DNA of 48,866 nt, taken from a virus. The notes under the pieces are model-generated. The model searched no databases. It was not told where the DNA came from and saw only the letters and a list, made by a program, of their open reading frames with translations. Every line of letters begins with the position of its first letter. Within the stretch, counting starts at the first letter, position 1. Shown piece after piece: positions 1-46,020 of this stretch. The stretch lies in the IMG/VR virus record IMGVR_UViG_3300022750_000018, positions 1 to 48,866 of that record; one strand, 5' to 3'. Both the position numbers and the translations under genes were made by a program.

Positions 1-132
1 CGGCGTGGAAATCAATGTTTCCGACGATGACGCCGTCCACAATATGGCCATATTAGCCAAAAATCAGGACGGACTCAAAGAACTATACAGGCTTACTTCG
101 AAAGCGCATCAGCAACCACTAGCCACCAAGAC
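1..132. repeat. Terminal overlap, 5' copy (contig closure)
   Basis: The first 126 bases are identical to 48736-48861. After that the 5' copy reads CACCAAGAC and the 3' copy CACAAGAC, a one-base difference. The overlap lies inside the polymerase gene. Only the 5' version keeps that reading frame open, so the missing C at the far end is most likely a contig-end error. This is the signature of a circular or circularly permuted genome assembled as a line, not of a biological long terminal repeat, although a short physical redundancy cannot be excluded. Confidence 0.93.
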
Positions 133-2569
133 AGGCAGCATCCCGAGGCTCTATCAGAACGATATTCGCCGCGCAAGCGACAATCTCATTTTTCTGGCAG
201 GGGAAGTCTTAGACGGCGAGTTTTTACAAGAGGTTGGTGCCTATATCGATATCAATCCTGGAAGCAGGATTCTGGCTGCCAAAAAACGGCTAATTGCCGA
301 TAAGTATATGCTTGGGATTATTAACACAGCGGACAACTACTTCGCTTATGAGGAAGATCGTGACACATTCGAATTGGCTTGCCGTGGTGGCTTGAAGCCT
401 ACGCCACAGCATATCATTGAACTTGACCCTAACGATTGTGCCGGAGCAATCGCCGCTCAATGCGAAGGATTGACCCTGCCTGTCGCACCGATGATCCGCG
501 CAGAAGGGAATCTAGAAGAACTATGCCGTGCTGGGATTAAATTCCGCAAGATGGAAGCCAACTGGAGCAAGGAATATGAAGACCGCCTTTTATACGAGCT
601 TGAGCTCATTAAGTCGAAAGACTTCGAGAGTTACTTTATCATTGTTGCTGACATGGTACAGTATGCTAAGCAGCACATGCTGGTTGGGCCAAGTCGAGGT
701 TCGGCAGCTGGCTCCCTCGTCTGCTATCTTGCCCGAATCACTGAAATTGATCCTATCCCGCCGAAGCTATACTTCGAACGATTCATTGACGTCTCCAGAA
801 CCGACTTGCCTGATATTGACTTAGACTTCCCTGATAATAAGCGCATTATGGTTTTCGATTATATGGCAGAGAAGTATGGCGCAAATAACACTGCCCACAT
901 TGGTACGATCTCTGTATTTAAGCCAAAGTCAGCACTTATTCAAGTCTGCAAGAAATTGAACATACCGCCATCGGCCACGCATGCTGTTAAGGTAGCGATG
1001 ATCGAACGCTCATCAGCTGACGCTCGCGCGAATAACTGCCTTGGCGATACGTTCGAGCAGACGGAGCCGGGACGGGAATTCATCGCCTTATACCCACAAG
1101 TTAAGACAGCATCATTAATCGAAGGCCATGCCAGCCATACAGGCGTGCACGCCGCTGGTCTGTTGGTCTGCAACGACGAGATCACGAACTATGCGACGGT
1201 AGACGCGAATGGGATCGCCCACGTCGAGAAAGGCGCTGCTGAAACGCTTGGGCTATTGAAGATTGACGTTCTTGGGTTAAGGACACTATCCGTTTTGGAA
1301 GACAGCGGCCTAAATATCGATTGGTACAGCTTGAAGTTTGACGATCCTAAAACATTCGAGATATTCAACGAGGAGCGCTTATGTGGAATATTCCAGTTCG
1401 AAGGCAATGCACTCCGGTCGATTACCAAGGCAATTAAATTCGATACCATTAACGAGATCGATGCTGTCACGGCGCTTGCCCGGCCTGGACCATTTATTGG
1501 CGGTGTTACTGAAGAATATATTAAACGGCGCAATGGCAAGAAGTACAAAGCCATTCACCCGCTCGTCGAGAAGCAGATGTCCGAGACATATGGCCTTCCA
1601 GTATATCAGGAGCAGACGCTGGCGATCGTTCGTGAGATTGGGAAATTCGACTGGAAGGAAACGTCCATCATCCGCAAGGCAATGTCCAAGTCGATGGGGA
1701 ACGAGTTCTTCGAGAAGTATTGGCCTAAATTCAAGAGCGGTGCGGAAAGCCAAGGGATCGAGGAAGCGGAAGCACGACAAGTCTGGGAGTTGATTAATGC
1801 CATGGGATCGTGGCAGATGAACAAGGCGCATACGTTTTCTTATGCTGTAATCAGCTATTGGACAGCCTATTTTAAAGCCCATCACCCATTGGAATTCGCT
1901 GCTGCCAATCTTCGTAATGCGAAGGACGAGGACAGCGCGACCGATCTTTTGCGCGAGATCGCCAAGGAAGGCATTGAATATATCCCTTTCGATCTTGAGC
2001 ATTCGGTTGAAAATTGGTCTGTTAAAGATGGCAAGCTGTTGGGCGGATTCCTTGCTTTGAAAGGCATTGGCGAATCGAAAGCTAAGAAGCTGATCGAAGC
2101 CCGAGACGCGCGCACACTTACGCAAAAACAGAAAGACGATATTGCGAAAGCGGCAAACACCTATGGTGATATCTTCCCTATCCAGACCAAGTTTGGCCAT
2201 ATGTATGCCGATCCAAGCGGCAATGGCATCTCGGGCGATATCCATCGCATTGAGGAGTTGGACGAAACGAAGATGAAGCAATGCGTTATCATTGCCGAAT
2301 TAATCAGCAAGAATCCACGAAGTCAGAACGAAGATGTATTGGTGAAGAAGCGCGGTGGCAAGATCGAAAAAGAGCAGCTTGAATTCCTTGACCTTCGCTT
2401 TAAGGATGACACTGGCGTGATAGGCGGCAGGATCGGGCGCAAGGATTATCAGGCGATTGGGAAAGACCTTCTGGAGAATATCCCTGTTGGTGCGCACCTC
2501 CTCGTCAGGGCAAGCTTTTATAATGATATCCGGTATTTATTTGTCAAGAAGTGGAGGCTGTTAGAATGA
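1..2569 (+). CDS. DNA polymerase III alpha subunit (DnaE-like), main part
   Basis: This is the replicative polymerase. The gene starts at 48557 and crosses the contig join, giving about 915 residues, shorter than the roughly 1160 of bacterial DnaE. Numbering in the joined protein: N-terminal PHP domain; conserved GPSRGSAAGSL near 290; catalytic aspartates in PDIDLDF near 330 and KIDVLGL near 482; helix-hairpin-helix LKGIGESKAKK towards the C-terminus; then an OB-fold-like tail. The PHP metal sites look degenerate (HLRLRTEYS where HLRxHS is expected; TDQ instead of TDH), as in E. coli, so proofreading should come from the adjacent DnaQ-like gene. Its stop overlaps the next gene by ATGA. Confidence 0.95.
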   Translation, partial: GVEINVSDDDAVHNMAILAKNQDGLKELYRLTSKAHQQPLATKTGSIPRLYQNDIRRASDNLIFLAGEVLDGEFLQEVGAYIDINPGSRILAAKKRLIADKYMLGIINTADNYFAYEEDRDTFELACRGGLKPTPQHIIELDPNDCAGAIAAQCEGLTLPVAPMIRAEGNLEELCRAGIKFRKMEANWSKEYEDRLLYELELIKSKDFESYFIIVADMVQYAKQHMLVGPSRGSAAGSLVCYLARITEIDPIPPKLYFERFIDVSRTDLPDIDLDFPDNKRIMVFDYMAEKYGANNTAHIGTISVFKPKSALIQVCKKLNIPPSATHAVKVAMIERSSADARANNCLGDTFEQTEPGREFIALYPQVKTASLIEGHASHTGVHAAGLLVCNDEITNYATVDANGIAHVEKGAAETLGLLKIDVLGLRTLSVLEDSGLNIDWYSLKFDDPKTFEIFNEERLCGIFQFEGNALRSITKAIKFDTINEIDAVTALARPGPFIGGVTEEYIKRRNGKKYKAIHPLVEKQMSETYGLPVYQEQTLAIVREIGKFDWKETSIIRKAMSKSMGNEFFEKYWPKFKSGAESQGIEEAEARQVWELINAMGSWQMNKAHTFSYAVISYWTAYFKAHHPLEFAAANLRNAKDEDSATDLLREIAKEGIEYIPFDLEHSVENWSVKDGKLLGGFLALKGIGESKAKKLIEARDARTLTQKQKDDIAKAANTYGDIFPIQTKFGHMYADPSGNGISGDIHRIEELDETKMKQCVIIAELISKNPRSQNEDVLVKKRGGKIEKEQLEFLDLRFKDDTGVIGGRIGRKDYQAIGKDLLENIPVGAHLLVRASFYNDIRYLFVKKWRLLE

Positions 2570-2994
2570 GTGAGCGCAACGCATATGCAACACTGAAAGA
2601 GAAGGTTTTCCGGCCTCGGGATCGCGTAAGCAGGGTAGAAAACGCGCTAGAAACCGGAATGCCAGACGTCAACTATTGTATTGACGGCTTCGAGGGCTGG
2701 ATCGAGATTAAATACCCTGTTGAGCCGAAGCGCGAAAGCACGCCATTATTCGGATCGAATCATAAATTCTCGCAAGATCAGCTTAATTGGATTTTGGCGC
2801 AACGAATTGCGAAAGGAACTGTCTGGTTATTTTTGGTTACAGATAAACGGTATTTACTCGTTCATTCATCTTGGGCAGACGCAATAAACAATATGACGCT
2901 TGCAGCAATAATCAAATTGGCAACTTGGGAAGCGCCGAAGCCTAATCGAGACAAAACAAAATGGGAAGAATTATGGAAACTGTTGAAGCTTTAA
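2566..2994 (+). CDS. VRR-NUC / PD-(D/E)xK family nuclease
   Basis: The protein is 142 residues. The start chosen overlaps the polymerase stop as ATGA. A conserved nuclease core is visible: an early glutamate in VENALETG, then GMPDVNY, then WIEIKYP, which reads as E, PD and ExK. This matches small phage VRR-NUC proteins that cut branched or Holliday-type DNA. It lies between the polymerase and an SNF2 helicase, an arrangement common in phage replication-recombination modules. Structure-specific activity is inferred from the family. Confidence 0.8.
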   Translation: MSERNAYATLKEKVFRPRDRVSRVENALETGMPDVNYCIDGFEGWIEIKYPVEPKRESTPLFGSNHKFSQDQLNWILAQRIAKGTVWLFLVTDKRYLLVHSSWADAINNMTLAAIIKLATWEAPKPNRDKTKWEELWKLLKL

Positions 2995-4490
2995 GCAAGT
3001 TCAAGACAAAGCCATACGATCACCAGCTGGAGTGCTTAAATCTGCACGGCGACAAGAAGGCGTTCGCGCTCCTCGCTGAAATGGGCACGGGCAAGACTTG
3101 GATTATCATAAATAACATCGCGGAGCTATGGGCGAGGGGCGATCTGGACGCCGTTATCGTCTTCGCACCCAACGGCGTGCATACGAATTGGACGCTGATC
3201 GAACTAGAAAAGCATATGCCTGATTGGGTGCGATATCGGGCTGCGGCTTGGACTGCTTCACCGAATAAGAAAGAGCGTGCTGCCCTTGAGTCGCTTTTCG
3301 ACTCGAAGGATAGCACTGAGCTTCGAGTGCTGACGATGAATTGGGAAGGGCTTCAACATAAGCGATCGATCGAATTCGCGGAGCGATTCTGCAACACGTC
3401 CCGGCGCTTAATGATCGTTGGGGACGAGATCGACGCTGTAAAGAATCCGACTGCCTTACGCACTAAGAGCCTGATGAAGTTGAAGAAGTTCAGCGAGTAT
3501 CGTCGCGGCATGACCGGGACGCCAGTGGACGGATCGCCCTTCTCGCTGTTCGCGCCATTTACATTCCTGGACGAAACGATTCTGGGCACGACAAGTTATT
3601 TCGCATTTAAGGCCGAATATGCCGAGATGCTGCAGCCCGGCAATCCATTGCTAGATCATATTATGGCTAAAACTCGCGCTCGCTTCACACCACAGGTGGT
3701 GGCTACAGGAGCCAATGGCCGTCCGAAGTATCGTAACCTCGATAAGCTTTCCCGTCTTATCGCACCGCACTCATTCCGGGTGTTAAAGAAAGACTGCCTC
3801 GACCTTCCTGAGAAAATCTATAAGACCGTCATATTCGATATGACGCCTGCGCAGAAGACCATATACGATCGCGCGAAGGACGAATTGCGATTGGAGTTCG
3901 AAGGCAACGAAACGCCATTCAACAAGCTTGCTGCGATGACTAAACTCTCTCAAATAACATCTGGATACTACATCCATCCGTTATCCGAGACTCCAGTGAG
4001 AATCGAAGGCGATAATCCTAAGATGGATATACTTGTTGACCGAGTGCAGGCTATTATTGAGCAAGGCGGCAAGGTTATCATATGGGCACGCTATCGAATC
4101 GAGATTGAAGATATCGTTGCTCGCCTTTCTAAATTAGACGAAACAAAGGTGGTGCAATATTATGGAGACATTAAAAAACGCGATCGAATTGAAGCAATCG
4201 AGTCCTTCGAGCGAGGCGACGCAAACGTGTTTGTTGGAAATCAGCAAGCTGGTGGCACTGGGATCACACTCGTTGCCGCCTCCTATGTCATCTACTTCTC
4301 CAACAACTTTAGCATGCGCGACAGGCTACAGTCTGAGGATCGCGCTCACAGGATTGGCCAGACTGAGAATGTTACTTACATCAACATCGCGGCAAAAGGG
4401 ACGATCGACGAACATGTAATCCGCACGCTAGGGAATAAGAAAGACGTTGCGGACGAGATTGTTGATATTGGGCTGGAGATGTTTAAATAA
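2973..4490 (+). CDS. SNF2/DEAD-box family DNA helicase (ATPase)
   Basis: The protein is about 505 residues. Motif I is AEMGTGKTW, motif II VGDEID (DExx box) and motif III MTGTPVDG. The second RecA lobe carries VIIWARY, GGTGITL and the motif VI signature QSEDRAHRIGQ, which is specific to SNF2 enzymes. No accessory DNA-binding domain is obvious. The start at 2973 is preceded by GGAAG and overlaps the nuclease gene end by 22 bases; an alternative in-frame start lies at 2961. It probably remodels forks or recombination intermediates. Confidence 0.92.
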   Translation: METVEALSKFKTKPYDHQLECLNLHGDKKAFALLAEMGTGKTWIIINNIAELWARGDLDAVIVFAPNGVHTNWTLIELEKHMPDWVRYRAAAWTASPNKKERAALESLFDSKDSTELRVLTMNWEGLQHKRSIEFAERFCNTSRRLMIVGDEIDAVKNPTALRTKSLMKLKKFSEYRRGMTGTPVDGSPFSLFAPFTFLDETILGTTSYFAFKAEYAEMLQPGNPLLDHIMAKTRARFTPQVVATGANGRPKYRNLDKLSRLIAPHSFRVLKKDCLDLPEKIYKTVIFDMTPAQKTIYDRAKDELRLEFEGNETPFNKLAAMTKLSQITSGYYIHPLSETPVRIEGDNPKMDILVDRVQAIIEQGGKVIIWARYRIEIEDIVARLSKLDETKVVQYYGDIKKRDRIEAIESFERGDANVFVGNQQAGGTGITLVAASYVIYFSNNFSMRDRLQSEDRAHRIGQTENVTYINIAAKGTIDEHVIRTLGNKKDVADEIVDIGLEMFK

Positions 4491-4519
4491 AATATTTTCA
4501 TATTTATGTAAGAAAAGTG

Positions 4520-4548
4520 TTTACTTTTGCAAAACGATGGAGGATACT
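4520..4548 (+). promoter_or_regulatory. Sigma70-like promoter, early type
   Basis: TTTACT (4520-4525), a 17-base spacer, then GATACT (4543-4548). The whole block from about 4504 to the leader motif is a diverged duplicate of 41482-41567. The two copies keep the -35/-10 spacing, TTTCTG(T/C)AGCAA and TCTTACAACTTAGAATGAAAGGA. It serves the 62-residue gene at 4596 and probably the genes beyond it. Confidence 0.72.
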
Positions 4549-4569
4549 TGTTTCTGTAGCAAGAATCTT

Positions 4570-4588
4570 ACAACTTAGAATGAAAGGA
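4570..4588 (+). promoter_or_regulatory. Repeated 5' leader element (copy 1)
   Basis: ACAACTTAGAATGAAAGGA lies 7 bases before ATG 4596. The AAAGGA part acts as Shine-Dalgarno sequence. The upstream ACTTAGAATG is conserved beyond what ribosome binding needs. The same element occurs before nine other genes in this genome. Confidence 0.85.
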
Positions 4589-4595
4589 TTTAAAA

Positions 4596-4784
4596 ATGTT
4601 TTTCGCTCATATATCAGGTCTTGGCTTTGTTCGCTTCTTTAGTGTTGACGGAGGCCAAACTCAAAAAGTATTTTTTACAACCGACGTTGAAGCGGCAACT
4701 CGCTGGCCAACTGAGAAAGCCCTTGTTGAAGAAATAAACGGCGACCTAACTGGTTTTAAAATTCTTAGAATAGAATTTATCTAA
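4596..4784 (+). CDS. Hypothetical small early protein (62 aa)
   Basis: No family recognised. It is a mixed-charge soluble protein beginning MFFAHISGLGFVRFF, with no membrane segment or cysteine motif. It stands alone behind its own promoter and conserved leader and is followed by another promoter, so it is probably a monocistronic early gene. Such genes often encode host-takeover or antidefence factors, but nothing in the sequence shows this. Confidence 0.65.
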   Translation: MFFAHISGLGFVRFFSVDGGQTQKVFFTTDVEAATRWPTEKALVEEINGDLTGFKILRIEFI

Positions 4785-4790
4785 AATAAC

Positions 4791-4820
4791 TTTACTTCCC
4801 AATTAATTTAGGCGCATAAT
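4791..4820 (+). promoter_or_regulatory. Sigma70-like promoter
   Basis: TTTACT (4791-4796), an 18-base spacer, then CATAAT (4815-4820). Transcription would start near 4827, ahead of a strong terminator hairpin at 4850-4885 and then the gene at 4904. The GGCGCATAAT block also appears near the minus-strand promoter at 37934. Confidence 0.65.
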
Positions 4821-4849
4821 AAATCGTCCTATTGAGGGAAATGCTTTGA

Positions 4850-4885
4850 ACAACCGTGTTACATCCCCGTCACGGTTGTCTTTTT
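4850..4885 (+). terminator. Factor-independent terminator or attenuator in a leader
   Basis: The stem ACAACCGTG/CACGGTTGT (9 bp, perfect) has a 12-base loop and is followed by CTTTTT. It sits about 25 bases downstream of the predicted start from the 4791 promoter and just before the leader motif of the 4904 gene. It either ends a roughly 60-nt RNA, attenuates the downstream operon, or stops read-through from upstream. Confidence 0.8.
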
Positions 4886-4901
4886 AAAACTTAGAATGGA
4901 G
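4886..4901 (+). promoter_or_regulatory. Repeated 5' leader element (copy 2, short form)
   Basis: AAAACTTAGAATGGAG immediately follows the terminator T-run and precedes the ATG ATG at 4904. In this copy GGAG replaces AAAGGA as the ribosome binding site. Confidence 0.75.
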
Positions 4902-4903
4902 TT

Positions 4904-5140
4904 ATGATGGCCAACGGCATACTAAAGATCAAACGAACAAGCGATCAGTCTGTTGAGATCACGTTCATGAGCGCCCGGCAAGCTTCCGAGTTTCAGAACA
5001 AATGCGAAGATTTACAAGACGGGATAACGCCAAAGGAAGAAGGCATATCCGGCTATGACGAACCGCGCGAAGGCTATAAGCCAATCACCGATCGTATGCG
5101 GCAGGACGAGGCTGGCATGAGTGATGGAGACTTTGTATGA
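4904..5140 (+). CDS. Hypothetical small protein (78 aa)
   Basis: No family recognised. It is hydrophilic and acidic in the second half. Two adjacent ATG codons (4904, 4907) could both start it. Its stop overlaps the next start as ATGA, so it heads a tightly coupled run of small genes to 6277. Confidence 0.65.
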   Translation: MMANGILKIKRTSDQSVEITFMSARQASEFQNKCEDLQDGITPKEEGISGYDEPREGYKPITDRMRQDEAGMSDGDFV

Positions 5141-5400
5141 GCGAGCCTATTAAAATAAATGATCTTGTCGTGGTGAATAAAACGGGTTCGTGCCAATGCA
5201 CTGTCGGGATGGGAAAGATTTTCACCGTTAAAGAAATTCTTCAAGGATTTTTAGAATGCGGAATCTGCAAAACAATTGTTCGTGGTGGAATCGTTGCCAC
5301 GTCTGAAAGTGGCTGGACTTGCGAAATAAAACGGCTGACTAAGATAGACGGCTTCGATCCCGACGTTGTTGAGCAGGAAGACTTGGAGTTGGCAATATGA
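5137..5400 (+). CDS. Hypothetical small protein with cysteine pairs (87 aa)
   Basis: A CQC pair near residue 20 and CGIC near residue 42, plus a further cysteine (WTCEIK), suggest a possible metal-binding fold. It begins with a beta-rich segment (INDLVVVNKTG) typical of small SH3/KOW-like phage proteins. It is ATGA-coupled on both sides. Function unknown. Confidence 0.65.
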   Translation: MSEPIKINDLVVVNKTGSCQCTVGMGKIFTVKEILQGFLECGICKTIVRGGIVATSESGWTCEIKRLTKIDGFDPDVVEQEDLELAI

Positions 5401-5540
5401 ACATACGCTCATGGCTGTATACCATCGCGGAATTGATGGGAGACTATCGTGCTATCAAGAATGGCCGGATCGGGCAGAGGATCGCTCGACGGCTGGCAGG
5501 GCGTGTAACGGGCAAATTACTTGGGAGGATTTTTCGATGA
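5397..5540 (+). CDS. Small basic protein (47 aa)
   Basis: The ATG at 5397 overlaps the previous stop (ATGA). The product is strongly basic with an RIGQRIARRLAGRVTGK segment. Short Arg/Gly/Ala helical proteins of this type are common in phages and may bind nucleic acid or membrane. I know of no demonstrated function. The frame is supported by the coupling on both sides. Confidence 0.6.
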   Translation: MNIRSWLYTIAELMGDYRAIKNGRIGQRIARRLAGRVTGKLLGRIFR

Positions 5541-5728
5541 GAATAAAAGGCATTTACATTGGCGCAGGATTAGGAGCAACAGCTTACGAAGTCCAGATTC
5601 ATAAATTGGTGATTCGAATTCTCCGCCCTAAATTATACTTTTGGCCATATAGACATTTTCTTACTGGAAAATTAGTTTTCCCTGAAGCGATCGGATTTAG
5701 AATTTACCCTGTGAATTACACAACTTAG
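5537..5728 (+). CDS. Hypothetical small protein (63 aa)
   Basis: The start chosen is ATG 5537, coupled by ATGA to the 47-residue gene. A longer in-frame opening from 5366 would overlap two genes and is unlikely. The sequence is aromatic and basic, with no clear transmembrane segment and no known family. Confidence 0.55.
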   Translation: MRIKGIYIGAGLGATAYEVQIHKLVIRILRPKLYFWPYRHFLTGKLVFPEAIGFRIYPVNYTT

Positions 5729-5737
5729 AATGAAAGG
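5720..5737 (+). promoter_or_regulatory. Repeated 5' leader element (copy 3)
   Basis: ACAACTTAGAATGAAAGG lies 7 bases ahead of ATG 5745 and overlaps the end of the preceding gene. No convincing -35/-10 lies directly upstream, so this copy may work only in translation. Confidence 0.8.
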
Positions 5738-5744
5738 CAATATC

Positions 5745-5969
5745 ATGACAAAAGTAAAGAGAACAAAACCATCCGCAGCATTATTGGCGAAGCGCCGCGC
5801 GAAAGAAATCTGCACGCCTGTTATGGATTCCGCTTATAAAGACAGGCGTGCATTTATCAACAGCGTCAGCCCATTCATTAAGGGCGAGAAAGAAGAGTTA
5901 AAATTCTTTAAGGTTAAGGTGATGAGCATCTTCACAGGCGCGAGCGATCAGGATCGGGTGGCTGTATGA
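5745..5969 (+). CDS. Hypothetical basic protein (74 aa)
   Basis: The start at ATG 5745 follows the conserved leader. The N-terminal third is Lys/Arg-rich. No family recognised. It is coupled by ATGA to a 21-residue membrane peptide. Confidence 0.6.
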   Translation: MTKVKRTKPSAALLAKRRAKEICTPVMDSAYKDRRAFINSVSPFIKGEKEELKFFKVKVMSIFTGASDQDRVAV

Positions 5970-6031
5970 ACGCTGACTGGCTTCTATACATAATCATCGC
6001 TCTTATCATAGTCGATCTTGTCCTGGACTAG
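5966..6031 (+). CDS. Very short membrane peptide (21 aa)
   Basis: The ORF MNADWLLYIIIALIIVDLVLD is one hydrophobic helix with acidic ends. It starts by ATGA overlap with the upstream gene and ends 2 bases before another short membrane ORF. Coupling and composition support expression; the function is unknown. Confidence 0.45.
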   Translation: MNADWLLYIIIALIIVDLVLD

Positions 6032-6033
6032 CC

Positions 6034-6141
6034 ATGAACTACTTTCTATGGACATTCTGTTTCTGGACGGGCTTCCTTGGTTTCGCAACCTTGGAGGCGT
6101 ATCTTTTCTATCTAATCCTTGGAGGATTTCCAATTGTTTAA
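6034..6141 (+). CDS. Short membrane peptide (35 aa)
   Basis: ATG 6034 opens a very hydrophobic, aromatic peptide (MNYFLWTFCFWTGFLGFATL and onward), probably a single helix or hairpin. Its 3' end overlaps the next gene by 8 bases and contains that gene's GGAGGA ribosome binding site. Confidence 0.45.
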   Translation: MNYFLWTFCFWTGFLGFATLEAYLFYLILGGFPIV

Positions 6142-6277
6142 AAATCAACCGATAAAGCACGTCTCAGGCAAATATGGAAAGGTAAAATCTCGTGGTCACT
6201 TCCCAGATACAATCATCATCGAGTTCGAAGACGGCAGCGAAACAGAATGCTACTTTAAAGAAGCGACGCCAGCGTGA
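6134..6277 (+). CDS. Small SH3/KOW-like hypothetical protein, TTG start (47 aa)
   Basis: TTG 6134 is preceded by GGAGGA at a 7-base spacing, which decides the start. The product has a central KYGKVKSRGHFPDTIIIEF segment and an ECYFKEA end, like small beta-barrel phage proteins. Function not known. Confidence 0.55.
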   Translation: MFKNQPIKHVSGKYGKVKSRGHFPDTIIIEFEDGSETECYFKEATPA

Positions 6278-30213: not shown

Positions 30214-31668
30214 TTATATCAGGCTATCCCAAGCGGCCAATCCTTCGAGGTCGCCTAGCATATCCTTAATGGCATCCATCATTGGATCGATCTGATCATC
30301 GTTTTGGTGGGAATCGTCCCGGCTAAAACATTCGCACTCGAACACGAAGTCCGTCACCCAAGGCGCGGATTCAGGAATCCATACATATCCGGCCTCGATC
30401 GATGGTGCTCCGTCCTGTACACGTGTAAGCTTATCAATGTTGCGCTCGATGCCCGTTACTGGAATATGGCCTTTGGTTTTTAGCGTCTGGATCAGACCTG
30501 TGCCGGATGCCTTATCCTCGATCTTCATGCCTCGAAGCTCTCCGCTCGTATTGCGTACAGGATCGACCGTCTTGCATTTTATCCAGAAGTCTTTTGCTCT
30601 TTGGAGTAGCTCCGGCGCTTCCCACTTACCACGAATCTGGTCGAGCAGGTATATGCGCCCGTCTAAGCCCATCCCCCAATGCTGGAACACGCTGTAGTCA
30701 TTATGCTGCTTAACCTTCATGGCAGTGTCGCCATAGACCATTCGGTATTTGAGAGGAGGCACTCGCCCATAGCGCTTAAACCATGTGCCCTGAATAACCT
30801 GACCGCCGACTATTTGCGGGTTTTGTTGGTACAAGGCATTCCAGTTGTGGCTATCCATTATGGTCTTGCGCTCTAACAGAAAGCCCAAGGATTTATGTTC
30901 AGGGAATAGCGGCTCACCTTGTTTGCGGTGCTTCTCGTCCTTTTCGGCTATGGCAGGGTAGCTAAATACTTTTACATTCTTCTCGATCGCGCGTAATCGT
31001 CCAATAGGATCGTCAATATGCCAACGGGTCAATATGCACAACAGACCTGCATCCTCGGAGAAGCGACTGAAGAAGTCGTCTGTAAACCAATCCCATGTCG
31101 ATTCACGGACGGCCTCTGAGCCTGCTGCCTCGCGGCCTTTGATCGGGTCATCGATAATGCCTAAATCTAGCCCTTCACCTGTAATCGATCCACGCACGGT
31201 TGTGTTCCTGAAATAGCCTTCCCGGTCTACATATTCAAGCATCTCGCGGTTGCGCATGTATTGTCCTGATATTGTAACGACATTCGAGCTATTGATTCTT
31301 GTTCCAGGGAATACGGCCTGATAGCGCTTGCTATCGTATATGCGCTGGAGGCGTAGGTTGGCGCGCACACCTAAACGGTCGGAAAACGAGGCATAGATCG
31401 TCCGAAGGTCTGGATTATGGCCAGCCAGCCAAGCTACCAAGTCAATAATCTGATACGACTTGCCATGCTGAGGAGGTGCTTCAATAACGTATTTCGGCCT
31501 TAGCCCTGCCTTAAGCTCGCCAACAAATTGTGTTAAAATGCCAGCAATTTCGCGTTGCCACCAGCCCTTTTTCATTTTAGGGTTCATATGCTGACGAAAC
31601 GCCCAGAAGTCCTTGCGGGCTTCCCGGATCGCTTGTTGCTCTAAATATTCGATGTCCTCAAGATTCAT
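30214..31668 (-). CDS. Terminase large subunit
   Basis: The protein is 484 residues. Walker A is APPQHGKS (64-71), Walker B LGIIDDP (169-175). The C-terminal nuclease starts at MVYGDTAMK with further acidic residues (DKASGTG). It is the motor and cutter for DNA packaging. Its start overlaps the small subunit gene by 11 bases. Confidence 0.93.
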   Translation of the reverse strand: MNLEDIEYLEQQAIREARKDFWAFRQHMNPKMKKGWWQREIAGILTQFVGELKAGLRPKYVIEAPPQHGKSYQIIDLVAWLAGHNPDLRTIYASFSDRLGVRANLRLQRIYDSKRYQAVFPGTRINSSNVVTISGQYMRNREMLEYVDREGYFRNTTVRGSITGEGLDLGIIDDPIKGREAAGSEAVRESTWDWFTDDFFSRFSEDAGLLCILTRWHIDDPIGRLRAIEKNVKVFSYPAIAEKDEKHRKQGEPLFPEHKSLGFLLERKTIMDSHNWNALYQQNPQIVGGQVIQGTWFKRYGRVPPLKYRMVYGDTAMKVKQHNDYSVFQHWGMGLDGRIYLLDQIRGKWEAPELLQRAKDFWIKCKTVDPVRNTSGELRGMKIEDKASGTGLIQTLKTKGHIPVTGIERNIDKLTRVQDGAPSIEAGYVWIPESAPWVTDFVFECECFSRDDSHQNDDQIDPMMDAIKDMLGDLEGLAAWDSLI

Positions 31669-32143
31669 GGTCTATCACTTTTTCATACATTAACAAGGGC
31701 AATCCTCTTTCCTGACATATCGCGGCAACCTCTTCGTCTGACAGATCTTTCTTGTTCGTCTCGACTTGGAATGGAGCATTCGGATCGCTGCTCACTTCCG
31801 TTTTGTCTCTCCAATCGAATCTATTCTTCATGTTAAATATCCAGACGGTCGCATTGCCTTCACGCAATCCAGCCGCCATTTCACGCCCAACTTTCTCCCA
31901 CCAGACCTGACAGAGCACCTTGCACTGCCTTACGGTTTCCCGAAAATCTTCACTGTCTGCCAGTAAAGTTTCCCATGCTGAATGGTAAATTCCTAACCTT
32001 GCTTGGCACTCGACGGCGCTTCCTCCGTCCTGAGCAATATCACGCATAATATTTTGCCAGCCTTCCGGCAAATCTTCAACAGTCGTTCTTGGCCTTCCAA
32101 CTGCCCGTTTTTCTGCTGGCTTTTCAGCCTTCTTTTTCGCCAC
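31658..32143 (-). CDS. Putative terminase small subunit (161 aa)
   Basis: GTG start with GGAGAG upstream. Lys-rich N-terminus with an AT-hook-like RAVGRPRTT, a helical region with a GIYHSAWETLLADSEDF turn, then ATVWIFNMKNRFDWRDK, which is typical of phage small terminases. It lies immediately before the large subunit and just after the inverted repeat at 32182-32294, a candidate recognition site. Confidence 0.78.
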   Translation of the reverse strand: MAKKKAEKPAEKRAVGRPRTTVEDLPEGWQNIMRDIAQDGGSAVECQARLGIYHSAWETLLADSEDFRETVRQCKVLCQVWWEKVGREMAAGLREGNATVWIFNMKNRFDWRDKTEVSSDPNAPFQVETNKKDLSDEEVAAICQERGLPLLMYEKVIDHES

Positions 32144-32181
32144 AATTTCTCTCCAAAAAATATACGCACCCCCATCAATTC

Positions 32182-32201
32182 CGTTCCGTGCTTTCCGCGC
32201 T
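32182..32201 (+). repeat. 20-bp inverted repeat, left arm
   Basis: The arm CGTTCCGTGCTTTCCGCGCT is the exact reverse complement of 32275-32294. The two arms are 73 bases apart, and the spacer is very AT-rich. Each arm contains repeated TTCCG units. It is in the longest clear gap between genes, beside the small terminase start. Confidence 0.92.
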
Positions 32202-32274
32202 CACTATACGCTTTCTATCTTAATTAAATAACCACTATTTCTCTTTATTTTAATTTTTAAAAAATCACATTAGC
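32202..32274. other. AT-rich spacer inside the inverted repeat
   Basis: About 73 bases, mostly A/T, including runs of T then A (TAATTTTTAAAAAATCA). On the minus strand TATAGT just inside the left arm could be a weak -10 box for the terminase operon. No ORF. The base composition would also suit a melting site. No open frame or RNA gene is seen in the rest of the gap (32144-32405). Confidence 0.6.
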
Positions 32275-32294
32275 AGCGCGGAAAGCACGGAACG
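32275..32294 (-). repeat. 20-bp inverted repeat, right arm
   Basis: Plus-strand AGCGCGGAAAGCACGGAACG, a perfect match to the reverse complement of the left arm, with mismatches immediately outside both ends. The short CGGAA unit is present twice. Confidence 0.92.
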
Positions 32295-32405
32295 CTTTTT
32301 GCTAAGTCTTTGTTTTTCACAAACTTTTAAAAAGTAAATAGTTTTCGAAATAAAAAGTTTTGACGACGAAGTTAGTGCTTACTTTCATTTATTTATTGTG
32401 TAACG

Positions 32406-34574
32406 TCAAAATGGCTCTTTTGGTAGTTTTTCGAGGTCAAAAACACGGTCAATTTCCTTCTTAGAATACACGATAAATTTAACACGATTTATGATCCACC
32501 TTCCGTCGCTAGAAGCATAATTCCTGTTAACAGAATACCCTGCCCGATCCATCGCATTCGATAACTTAGCGCGTGCTTCCTGCGCCTTCATCCCTTTACT
32601 CTCGGCCATCGATATTACAATATTAGCGCCAATATGGTCAGGATAGTTTAAATCATTAAGGATATCGTCCAGCCAAGCATCGCCGACCAGCCCGGCACTA
32701 ACAACCGTCTTATGCGCCGCCGTCTTTCGCTGGCCATTAGAGGCATTGAACTTCGATATATCGCGCGCATTCAGGAACGCCGCTACGTGCGTATCCCCGC
32801 CATCCAGATTAAACCACCCCCATAAGTCGTCGAAATAAGCGCGCATAATCGATTCATCAGAGAATCCCATCTCACGCATAGTAGCGCATTCAATCACGTC
32901 ATACCGCCTATCACCAGCCGGAATATAAATCCCAGAGGATAGATGGTTCGTGGTAATAATAACGCCGCAGAACATTCTTACGGTGAACTTCTGGCCATAT
33001 TTAGGGTTGATTGAAGTCGTATCGGGATTCCCTGCAATTAAAACCTTCGTTTTCTCATTAAAAGCCCACTTCGTCATTTCCGCTAGATTAGCGGCCTCGG
33101 ATATCCGCACAAGAACGGAAGCGGCGAATTCATTAAAGTTCGATTCCAGCGCGGAAGGATCGATGTTGGCGACGTTCCAAACGCCGATGGCCGGGCAAGC
33201 CATCTCGACAGCAGTATCTTTCCCCACGCCCTGTTCACCCGCCAAGAGGAGTGCGAATCGCGTCTTCTCCCAAGGCTTCTGCACCCGGTGCGCCATATAG
33301 TCCAGGAACTGATCCGCATCACCTTCCTTATTGAAGACACGACGAACGTGCTCGACGAACGGTTGCGCCATGCGCGGATCGCCCAATTCAATCGTCGCAG
33401 GCCGATAGGTATTAAACAACGCACCACCAGCCACGTCCACAATCTCGCCATTGCGGCAATCCTTACCACGCGTGTAATCCTCATCGATCGATGGATCAGC
33501 CGTCATACTCGTCACCAGCTGATTCTCTTGCAGCCATTGGCTAGCCTTAATGATCTTGCCTTCGTCATTAACGGGCGAGACAGCCGCATCCACCGCCGCA
33601 GCAATACAATAGGAAGTCGTTGGGCGATATATGTAATTATTGCCGGGCATATAATAGACAAAATTACCGATTGGTACTTCACCCTTCTTGGGTGCCCAAC
33701 CTGCATCGATGGCTGCCTTAACAATCGTACCGAGTGTAAGCTCTTTCTCATTATTAACCTGTGAAAGCTCGTAAAACGCCTCTTTCATTATCGATTCGTG
33801 GTTGCGGCCTTTCTTGCCGCCAGCCTTATCTGACCAGACTTGATAGACTTCCCAAGCTTCGTCTACCCGCTGAAACGTGCGTCCGAGTATTATGCCGACC
33901 GAGCGCCAGAGATCGCGATCGTCCGAGGGAATAACGTCCAGCATTGAAGCCACCTGCTCGATCGTGTACTTCGAGTTGTACATGTCGTCCTTGCGTTTCC
34001 GGCCTCGCGTCTCCTTGCGACGACTTAGGTGCGACGGCAATATTCCTATCTTTGGCTGTTTCTCGTCCCATGAGTAAAATCCTCCAGACCGATGCCGCGA
34101 CGGAGCAGCCACAATATACCCTCCATCATTCCGAACGTCCACACCTTTGCCCAGCGTATTGGAAGACGTTTTTAGAGCGGAGTTATATTGAAAGATGACG
34201 TGCATTCCTCCCGAGCCAGTATGGGCCATCAATGTATCGGGCTCGCCGTTGTCGCCAATCGCCTCTAGCCAACTCTCCGCACCAAACTTGCCTTCCCCTA
34301 TGTCTACATCGATGACAGTGATACCGGAGATTTCCCCGGTAACAATGGCAATGTTGCTAGGCTCTGACCCCTTGCCGAACCATTGCTCGATCTTGCTCAG
34401 GTCTCGCGATGCCTCTTTTAGGCCACGCGCCAATCGTGGGTGCTTACCAGCATCACCACAATTTGCCACACCGCACGTGCAACTTAGATCGTCCTTGACC
34501 GTATGCAAGGGGAAGACGTAAAAACCACGGGTAACATATTCTATTGCTGCTTTTAATACTGCTTCATTGGTCAT
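32406..34574 (-). CDS. Bifunctional primase-polymerase / SF3-like helicase
   Basis: The protein is 722 residues. The N-terminal Prim-Pol domain (1-190) has DVD at 89-91, GSGGMHVIF with His125 and a CTC/C cluster at 32-39. A PriCT-type helical domain follows near 205-285 (YTIEQVASMLDVIPSDDRDLW). The C-terminal helicase has Walker A GEQGVGKDT near 445 and NHLSSGIYIPAGDRRYDV. It makes primers and unwinds DNA at the origin. It ends the minus-strand replication operon. Confidence 0.9.
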   Translation of the reverse strand: MTNEAVLKAAIEYVTRGFYVFPLHTVKDDLSCTCGVANCGDAGKHPRLARGLKEASRDLSKIEQWFGKGSEPSNIAIVTGEISGITVIDVDIGEGKFGAESWLEAIGDNGEPDTLMAHTGSGGMHVIFQYNSALKTSSNTLGKGVDVRNDGGYIVAAPSRHRSGGFYSWDEKQPKIGILPSHLSRRKETRGRKRKDDMYNSKYTIEQVASMLDVIPSDDRDLWRSVGIILGRTFQRVDEAWEVYQVWSDKAGGKKGRNHESIMKEAFYELSQVNNEKELTLGTIVKAAIDAGWAPKKGEVPIGNFVYYMPGNNYIYRPTTSYCIAAAVDAAVSPVNDEGKIIKASQWLQENQLVTSMTADPSIDEDYTRGKDCRNGEIVDVAGGALFNTYRPATIELGDPRMAQPFVEHVRRVFNKEGDADQFLDYMAHRVQKPWEKTRFALLLAGEQGVGKDTAVEMACPAIGVWNVANIDPSALESNFNEFAASVLVRISEAANLAEMTKWAFNEKTKVLIAGNPDTTSINPKYGQKFTVRMFCGVIITTNHLSSGIYIPAGDRRYDVIECATMREMGFSDESIMRAYFDDLWGWFNLDGGDTHVAAFLNARDISKFNASNGQRKTAAHKTVVSAGLVGDAWLDDILNDLNYPDHIGANIVISMAESKGMKAQEARAKLSNAMDRAGYSVNRNYASSDGRWIINRVKFIVYSKKEIDRVFDLEKLPKEPF

Positions 34575-42319: not shown

Positions 42320-42601
42320 ATGAGGCATCAAGATATTAATGGCCACATACTTGGAACGGGCTCGTCAATACAGGTCGATTCCGTAACTTTAAAATTAAGT
42401 CGCGAAGACGCTTACGCGCTTTGCAATCTTCTTGGCGATTCAGACTTGGATAAAAATGTTCACGGCTATTTGGAATTAGACCAGATTGAAGCATTGAAGA
42501 GAATAGGCCGCGATCTAGGAATTTTCGTTGACCATTCAACCCGTCATAATTTGGGCGTTTTTAAGATTTCAGTGACGCCAGTCGAGAAGGATCAATCATG
42601 A
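42320..42601 (+). CDS. Hypothetical protein (93 aa)
   Basis: ATG 42320 follows the leader; an in-frame ATG lies inside the leader. Features: VTLKLSREDAYALCNLLGDSD and IEALKRIGRDLGIFV. No family. It is ATGA-coupled to the ThyX-like gene, so it may act with it. Confidence 0.6.
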   Translation: MRHQDINGHILGTGSSIQVDSVTLKLSREDAYALCNLLGDSDLDKNVHGYLELDQIEALKRIGRDLGIFVDHSTRHNLGVFKISVTPVEKDQS

Positions 42602-43317
42602 AAGTCACACTCATAAACCATACGCAAAATGCTGCCGAGTTGCTGCTATTTACGAAGAGCACAAGGCTTCAATTGAACTCGGTTTTAATGAATTCAATTG
42701 AAGAAATGCCTGAATGCGATAAAATGTCCGAACTCGAATACATGGCCAATACGATCCCTTCCTCGTGGGAGTTCGTCGATTACACGTTCCTCATCGAAGG
42801 AGTCAGCCGTGCTTATACGCACCAACAGGTAAGAACGCGAGCCGCGAGCTACGCCCAGCAGACCATGCGTGTGTTAGACATGGGCGAGTTTGATTATGTT
42901 TATAGCGACGCGATCTTGGCTGATGTTGAGGCCAAGCGTTGCGTTGATAGTTGTTTGAAAGGAATTAAGAGCCATTATCGTGAGTTGATTCTTCGTGGAA
43001 TCGCACCAGAAGACGCCAGAGGCATCCTGCCGACCAACATAGCCACCAATATCGTCTGCAAGTTTAACCTGCGCACGCTATCCGAATTGGCGAAGTCCCG
43101 CACCGGAGGCCGCACGCAAGGCGAATATCAGAAAGTGATTAACGCCTGCATCGATGCCGCGCTAGCCGTCCATCCTTGGGCAGAGAAGTTTCTGTTTACT
43201 CAATCTCGTGATTACTTTCAGGAGATTGAAGAATTCGCCTTGCGCAAATTCCCAGACTTAAAAGAGCGTGGTGAGTTGCTGAAGATCGTAGATAAAATGC
43301 GGAAGGAATCGAAATGA
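42598..43317 (+). CDS. Divergent flavin-dependent thymidylate synthase (ThyX-like)
   Basis: The protein is 239 residues. It has the ThyX core SRAYTHQQVRTRAASYAQQT (70-89) and the downstream ILPTNIATNIVCKFNLRTL. The usual RHRxxSxxxxS signature is changed to RTRAASYAQQT: His to Thr at 80 and the final Ser to Thr at 89. The family methylates dUMP using FAD, NADPH and methylene-folate. The changes could mean a diverged thymidylate synthase or a related base-modifying activity. Confidence 0.75.
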   Translation: MKVTLINHTQNAAELLLFTKSTRLQLNSVLMNSIEEMPECDKMSELEYMANTIPSSWEFVDYTFLIEGVSRAYTHQQVRTRAASYAQQTMRVLDMGEFDYVYSDAILADVEAKRCVDSCLKGIKSHYRELILRGIAPEDARGILPTNIATNIVCKFNLRTLSELAKSRTGGRTQGEYQKVINACIDAALAVHPWAEKFLFTQSRDYFQEIEEFALRKFPDLKERGELLKIVDKMRKESK

Positions 43318-44835: not shown

Positions 44836-45341
44836 AAGAAGCGATAAAACACGTAGCAGAATTTAGAGTTGGCCCGCCTTTAAATTTAAGGGCTGACACT
44901 TATGTTACCATTTACGATAAAGGAGGTGCGCAAGCGTCTGGCGTTGCTAGCAGGTTCAATTGGAGCGCAACTGGCGATCTTAACGAGATAGTTGCGTATA
45001 TCATTGGAACACAAGATAAAGCAGCGAACCCCACGCAAGCAAAAGTGACAGCAGCCACGATCCTCGCTGAGATGGGGCAGACCTATGCGGAACGGAATAA
45101 AGTCTATGGCAGCAACTATAAGATGGTTGGGCCGATAATGAAAATTCTATTCCCTGATGGCGTGCCAGAGCACTTACCATTTACAGACCAGTTCCATCTT
45201 TTCGAGCTAATCCTCGTTAAGCTTTCCCGGTTCGCAATCAGCGGCCTAACCCATGTTGATTCGATTCATGATTCTGCCGTTTATGGCTCCATGATCGAAG
45301 CAATTTTACACAACGAAGAAGAAAGGAAGCAGCATGAGTAA
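44832..45341 (+). CDS. DUF6378 domain protein (169 aa)
   Basis: The N-terminal part is beta-rich. The C-terminal domain has the family pattern AERNKVYGSNYKMVGPIMKIL, HLFELILVKLSRFA and HVDSIHDSAVYGSMIEAI. This helical domain is widespread in phages and may belong near MazG/nucleotide-handling proteins, but its activity is not established. It overlaps the SDR gene start by 8 bases. Confidence 0.75.
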   Translation: MKEAIKHVAEFRVGPPLNLRADTYVTIYDKGGAQASGVASRFNWSATGDLNEIVAYIIGTQDKAANPTQAKVTAATILAEMGQTYAERNKVYGSNYKMVGPIMKILFPDGVPEHLPFTDQFHLFELILVKLSRFAISGLTHVDSIHDSAVYGSMIEAILHNEEERKQHE

Positions 45342-46020
45342 TATTATTGTAACAGGCGGAAGTAGCGGCCTTGGAAAGGAAATTGTTGAAGTTCTTCGTC
45401 AGGACGGTCATCGCGTATTTAATTATGATGTTAGCAACGGAGATCATGTTTGCTATCCAAATTTAAGAGATGCTGGGTATTACCTTTTTGGTGATGTTGA
45501 TGTCCTAATCAACTGCGCCGGAATCAACAAGATCGACTATCTTGAAGACGTCATGGAACAGGATTGGGATCAGGTCATGGAAATAAACGCTAAAGGCATA
45601 TTCAAAATGTCTCAAGCGCTTCTTCCTCAGCTGATCGAATCCCAAGGCACCATCCTCAATATCGTCAGCAACGCCGCGCACATGCCGATGACGAGCAGTC
45701 TCGCGTATAACGCCTCCAAGGGCGCGGCGCATATCATGACCTTGCAACTGGCGCGTGAATTGACGAAGCGCCATGGCATCACGGTCTTTGGGGTCGCCCC
45801 GAACAAGCTTAAAGGCACCAAGATGTCTGAGAGCATAGACCAGCAGGTGGTGCGCACGCGTGGCTGGGATTTAGAGACTGCGCAGAAGTATCAACTGGCA
45901 GGATTATTGGCCGGAGAGGAGACCGATCCGAAAGAGGTTGCCGGATTGATCGCTTATCTACTACAATCGAAACAACGGCATAAATATCTCACTGGCACGA
46001 TTTTGCCATATGGGCTTTAG
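45334..46020 (+). CDS. Short-chain dehydrogenase/reductase (228 aa)
   Basis: A complete classical SDR: cofactor loop TGGSSGLG (7-14), NCAG (60-63), catalytic Ser112 in NIVSNAA, and Tyr125/Lys129 in YNASK. It should be an active NAD(P)H-dependent reductase. The substrate is unknown. A full metabolic SDR in a lytic phage is uncommon, and its overlap with DUF6378 suggests it is part of the accessory operon. Confidence 0.9.
   Translation: MSNIIVTGGSSGLGKEIVEVLRQDGHRVFNYDVSNGDHVCYPNLRDAGYYLFGDVDVLINCAGINKIDYLEDVMEQDWDQVMEINAKGIFKMSQALLPQLIESQGTILNIVSNAAHMPMTSSLAYNASKGAAHIMTLQLARELTKRHGITVFGVAPNKLKGTKMSESIDQQVVRTRGWDLETAQKYQLAGLLAGEETDPKEVAGLIAYLLQSKQRHKYLTGTILPYGL

Follow-up and report, generated by a model that had tools for sequence, protein, structure and literature searches.

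In the window, by which we mean the whole stretch of viral DNA analyzed here (48,866 bases, in a record classed as linear), the inverted repeat at positions 32182 to 32294 is probably a phage replication origin, for which the adjacent primase-helicase would act as the initiator, as judged from sequence comparison and from analogy with characterized systems. An origin built from iterons and served by an initiator-helicase is a known kind; we found no description, in the literature searched, of a variant from uncultured phages in which the arms covary with the recognition helix. Replication origins are unknown for most tailed phages, above all for uncultured ones, and here comparison alone points to both an origin and its initiator.

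The earlier note had described a perfect 20-bp inverted repeat with an AT-rich core, and both features were confirmed. Arm 1 (CGTTCCGTGCTTTCCGCGCT, 32182 to 32201, plus strand) is the exact reverse complement of arm 2 (32275 to 32294, minus strand; AGCGCGGAAAGCACGGAACG as read on the plus strand), with 20 of 20 positions complementary and a gap of 73 bp. The core that fills this gap (32202 to 32274), which we propose as the strand-opening region and whose minus-strand reading aligns with the cores of relatives, has 78% A+T compared with 52% for the window, corresponding to the 99.9th percentile, and five other places in the window are equally A/T rich. The repeated TTCCG units that had been noticed do exist, but they are in fact part of 9-bp units, TTCCGTGCT and TTCCGCGCT, which stand in tandem within each arm. 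In particular, each arm carries an outer iteron-like unit, TCCGTGCT (32185 to 32192 on the plus strand in arm 1 and 32284 to 32291 on the minus strand in arm 2), and an inner one, TCCGCGCT (32194 to 32201 on the plus strand and 32275 to 32282 on the minus strand), so that oppositely oriented tandem short iterons lie on either side of an A/T-rich stretch, as in an iteron origin. At gaps of 40 to 130 bp, this is the top-scoring inverted repeat of the window (score of 20, with the runner-up at 12), and 40 window-sized sequences drawn from a first-order Markov model reached 13 at most; about 6e-6 exact 20-bp pairs would be expected by chance at gaps of up to 130. The paired 9-bp unit is confined to the two arms in a search of the whole window allowing up to 3 mismatches, and the single 8-bp units, with one mismatch allowed, occur 107 times against 86 expected, which is barely over chance.

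The order of genes on the minus strand is primase-helicase, element, terS, terL, and portal. The element is placed 3' of the stop codon of the primase gene (32406) and, as previously claimed, adjoins the gene of the small terminase subunit TerS (161 amino acids [aa]; 31658 to 32143, minus strand; PHROG 309), whose GTG start (32143) lies 38 bp downstream of it; we regard TerS as a neighbor and not as the main user of the site. The large subunit, TerL (484 aa), is encoded at 30214 to 31668 on the same strand (Pfam Terminase_6N/6C, PHROG 38). The position between a terminase and a primase-helicase operon is correct insofar as both flank the element, but the two are not divergent, both genes being on the minus strand.

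The primase-helicase (722 aa; 32406 to 34574, minus strand), characterized with Pfam, PHROGs, AlphaFold2, and Foldseek, combines a Prim-Pol domain at its N terminus and a DUF5906/VapE-like SF3 helicase, both identified by Pfam, with a predicted C-terminal winged helix; an SF3/D5-type helicase and candidate initiator is thus encoded beside the site. The winged helix, our proposed iteron-binding domain, spans about residues 618 to 709 (32448 to 32723, minus strand) in AlphaFold2 models. In the model of the whole protein, with a mean pLDDT of 76, residues 633 to 705 form a helix-strand-helix-helix-wing arrangement in which residues 664 to 677 (AQEARAKLSNAMDR, with the motif EARAKL; 32544 to 32585, minus strand) occupy the position of the recognition helix, and the C-terminal domain folded alone reaches a pLDDT of about 90 over most of its length. 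Foldseek matched the isolated domain mostly to winged-helix proteins, weakly (best E value, 0.4). For the whole model, the C-terminal region of the NrS-1 polymerase ranked first, this being the solved structure nearest to the helicase part, and PriRep1 of SaPI5 was also among the matches.

In four relatives (L089, L090, L092, and L184), a separate gene of about 125 to 145 aa just 3' of the primase resembles the primase C-terminal domain, with 26 to 27% identity to primase residues 608 to 713 where aligned, L184 having been judged by eye; its product is possibly a free-standing origin-binding protein or specificity partner. In two others the primase occupies two open frames (L015 [G025], 3080 to 5250, with an internal TAA; L112 [G018], 3689 to 6180, with overlapping frames), which may be genuinely split genes or the result of sequencing errors. 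Roseobacter phage RDJL3 encodes a PrimPol-helicase related to the window primase (L228, 5986 to 8322; OK283305.1) that is publicly labeled "integrase," which is probably a misannotation.

Searches with TerL and the primase gathered about 170 related loci, a number that includes overlapping segments of single contigs; most primase-bearing contigs were examined nearly whole, and elements were called by a mismatch-tolerant scan. The resulting set comprises 26 elements, namely, that of the window and 25 from relatives, the arms of L088 and L091 having been placed by hand and the rest by the scan. As to the suggested search for the same repeat in relatives, the exact arm has no match in viral contigs, since the arms diverge while the layout is kept, and it is this layout that recurs in the 25 elements. 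The core is recognizable in much of the set and the arms mostly differ in sequence, with units such as TCCGAGCT in L112, GGCCGTG in L111, CGAACGTG in L100, and a repeat of GCACTATTA in L099. The gap measures 69 to 76 bp in 13 elements and 80 to 88 bp in 8. A core-plus-arm profile built from eleven elements recovered two elements absent from its training set, L081 and L016, with E values of 2e-10 and 3.5e-8, as well as L176 (E value, 0.002). The scan gave no clear element in several primase-bearing relatives (e.g., L095, L096, L107, L108, L116, and L117), nor was a comparable element found beside distant PrimPol genes in six isolated phages, and cultured phages gave no DNA match near the element and none to the primase C-terminal domain. 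Arm length peaks at 39 bp, with one mismatch, in the element at 2162 to 2315 of L034/G024, a 25-kb contig in which no primase was detected; either the contig is incomplete or a different initiator uses the element.

Because the element usually sits between the primase and terminase modules, we looked for loci that discriminate between the two. The earlier note had given prominence, in its title, to a packaging site, in which TerS would bind the inverted arms and TerL would cut nearby (cos) or headful packaging would start (pac). Sites of both types often adjoin terS or lie inside it, the element is located near terS in most relatives as in the window, and lambda-type cos/cosB likewise has repeated protein sites with A/T-rich DNA beside terS. 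However, among TerL-related loci, counted only with at least 1.5 kb upstream, the element was present in 6 of the 8 with a primase and was missing from 51 of the 53 without one (Fisher P = 1.3e-5), the two positives being the family-like element of L034 and, in L049, a 15-bp repeat that the profile does not support. Over whole contigs, A/T-cored inverted repeats numbered 10 in 155 kb within 3.5 kb of a primase and 2 in 676 kb elsewhere (P = 2e-6); one of these last two, in G011, is actually primase proximal, since the contig ends overlap inside the primase gene. The ends of G011 cut this gene and share about 37 of its residues, and the contig is therefore circular or terminally redundant. Furthermore, the layout stays constant beside at least six TerS families, that is, PHROGs 309 (window), 51 (L008 and L112), 1482 (L186, L185, L205, and L207), 606 (L190), and 3064 (L214 and L034), together with a PHROG 15261-like small gene without a named function (L227, L226, and L088). 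The element also occurs in G016 and L176, in which no TerL was detected with the eleven TerL queries used. By these counts the element follows the primase and not the terminase; different from lambda cos, it shows no tie to a TerS family, and no nicking site was identified. A packaging site is thus unlikely, even if a double role is possible, given that the element usually adjoins terS.

The arm sequences bear on the identity of the binding protein. Within the arms of the 26 elements, internal repetition shows at lags of 9 and 10 bp (z = 2.9 and 4.9) and at no other tested lag, a periodicity that fits iterons read from one face of the helix. The window, L098/L008, L009, and L112 share the EARAKL recognition-helix motif and TCCGNGCT arms, and the window, L009, and L112 agree in arms and helix despite TerS proteins of PHROG 309 and PHROG 51. 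A DVKRKL helix is common to L091, L190, L227, L016, L015, and L081, whose arms contain CCGTGT-like units; in particular, L091 and L190 have nearly identical arms and unrelated TerS proteins (window-like PHROG 309 type versus PHROG 606), even though the L190 element is 5' of the primase and in the opposite orientation. In the sequences compared, this grouping cuts across overall primase relatedness: residues 1 to 600 of the window primase are 75% identical to L091 versus 65% to L098, whereas residues 608 to 722 are 50% identical to L098 versus 44% to L091.

Pairs with at least 60% identity over helix 2 and helix 3 had a mean arm similarity of 8.5 versus 6.1 for the remainder (label permutation P = 1e-4, with shared ancestry not removed), and restriction to pairs with a helicase identity of 0.70 to 0.90 gave means of 7.9 versus 6.0. 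The 0.6 cutoff was picked after the continuous correlation between arms and helix (Mantel type, all pairs) had been seen to be weak, with a Spearman coefficient of 0.15 and a partial P value of 0.066, since in most pairs the arms show no measurable resemblance; a clear result came only from contrasting the similar-helix pairs. Similar arms were found in none of the 7 pairs with the same TerS family and different primase helices, against 10 of the 53 with different TerS families and similar helices. As far as these sequences and models go, arm sequence appears to follow the predicted recognition helix of the primase winged helix, not TerS.

Two further readings make use of the position and symmetry of the element. 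A regulator, perhaps the primase itself, could bind both arms, loop the core, and control terS transcription, for which the location in the terS leader and the commonest gap of 69 to 76 bp, about seven helical turns, would be suitable, this phasing being suggestive only over gaps that range from 54 to 113. However, the element is not fixed in place or direction with respect to the two genes, being 5' rather than 3' of the primase in L100, L104, L111, and L190; a scan for sigma-70-like promoters found none at 31900 to 32700, and arms that track the primase's own helix would be unexpected for a separate regulator. Such an operator accounts for less than an origin does, and we consider it quite improbable. 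An RNA hairpin, with a 20-bp stem and a 73-nucleotide loop serving as an mRNA terminator or as a processing or stability element, would explain why the fold is far better than that of shuffled sequences (z = -7.8) and why both arms change together across relatives, but internal repeats of 9 to 10 bp would be unexpected in a stem, the core flips its orientation relative to the genes between phages, and the loop is far longer than in intrinsic terminators, in which a G+C stem with a short loop precedes a U run; no such terminator was called at this stem. We give this hairpin very little credence. No Rfam family reached its gathering score; the matches, far below threshold, were limited to look-alikes of microRNA hairpins and a single CRISPR repeat, and we rejected them as generic long hairpins. 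Of the three readings that had been offered, namely, a packaging site, an operator, and an origin with paired protein sites, the last is the one that agrees with an element tracking the primase and its predicted domain. The suggested GC-skew analysis does not help to place the origin, since the minimum of the cumulative skew, near 38 kb, coincides with a change of gene direction.

On the origin reading, and by analogy with SaPI Rep, for which such a mechanism has been proposed, and with Cch2, for which part of it has been shown, it is possible to hypothesize that primase-helicase molecules occupy the iterons of the two arms by means of the C-terminal winged helix, that two helicase rings would assemble on the oppositely oriented arms and face each other across the core, and that the initiator-helicase would melt this A/T-rich stretch, with priming outwards in both directions. 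Elongation could then pass to the phage DNA polymerase III alpha homologue, an 854-aa protein encoded at 5 to 2569 (plus strand); an SNF2-type helicase is encoded near it, at 2961 to 4490.

The SaPIbov1 origin, in the 2012 work of Ubeda et al., reportedly includes iteron sets that face opposite ways on the two sides of an A/T-rich region of about 80 bp. SaPI Rep is described in PMC7581432, which cites Ubeda et al. 2007, as an initiator-helicase whose C-terminal DNA-binding domain recognizes short iterons directly downstream of the rep gene and which is presumed to bind as a pair of hexamers. The window resembles this system in its initiator-helicase with a (here predicted) C-terminal DNA-binding domain, in a putative iteron origin directly 3' of the initiator gene, and in the structural match to PriRep1. 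It differs in being a phage genome and not a satellite, in the fusion of PrimPol to the helicase, in units of 9 to 10 bp, and in long, often exact arms, and the phage element is in some relatives placed 5' of the initiator gene instead. In SCCmec, the C-terminal domain of Cch2 binds direct repeats 3' of the helicase gene at a putative origin with only three AAGTG iterons; the direct repeats are required for binding and the inverted repeats are dispensable (PMC7581432). The polymerase associated with Cch2 is a separate protein, unlike the PrimPol-helicase fusion of the window. For NrS-1, itself a PrimPol-helicase, the accessible text of PMC7102993 reports an 8-nucleotide recognition sequence that occurs twice in the genome, once per strand, and is suggested as a possible origin, recognition having been shown on a single-stranded template for priming; iteron arms are not among the features described there.

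The perfect symmetry of the arms, up to 39 bp, exceeds the need of separate iterons, and contact with the whole arm or active upkeep is conceivable. More tentatively, and with doubt prevailing, these elements may constitute a widespread family of interchangeable phage origins: the winged helix and both arms would change specificity together, the core would be kept, and the arm symmetry would be actively maintained, e.g., through extrusion of hairpins or copying of one arm from the other, with the arms then acting as structure in addition to binding sites. Some 26 putative natural origin/initiator pairs of differing specificity could allow the recognition of bases by individual residues to be deciphered, and they make it possible to test small phage-derived replicons, each with its own specificity. 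Elsewhere in the window, the plus strand carries two possible host-metabolism genes, for a ThyX-type thymidylate synthase and a short-chain dehydrogenase (42598 to 43317 and 45334 to 46020, respectively).
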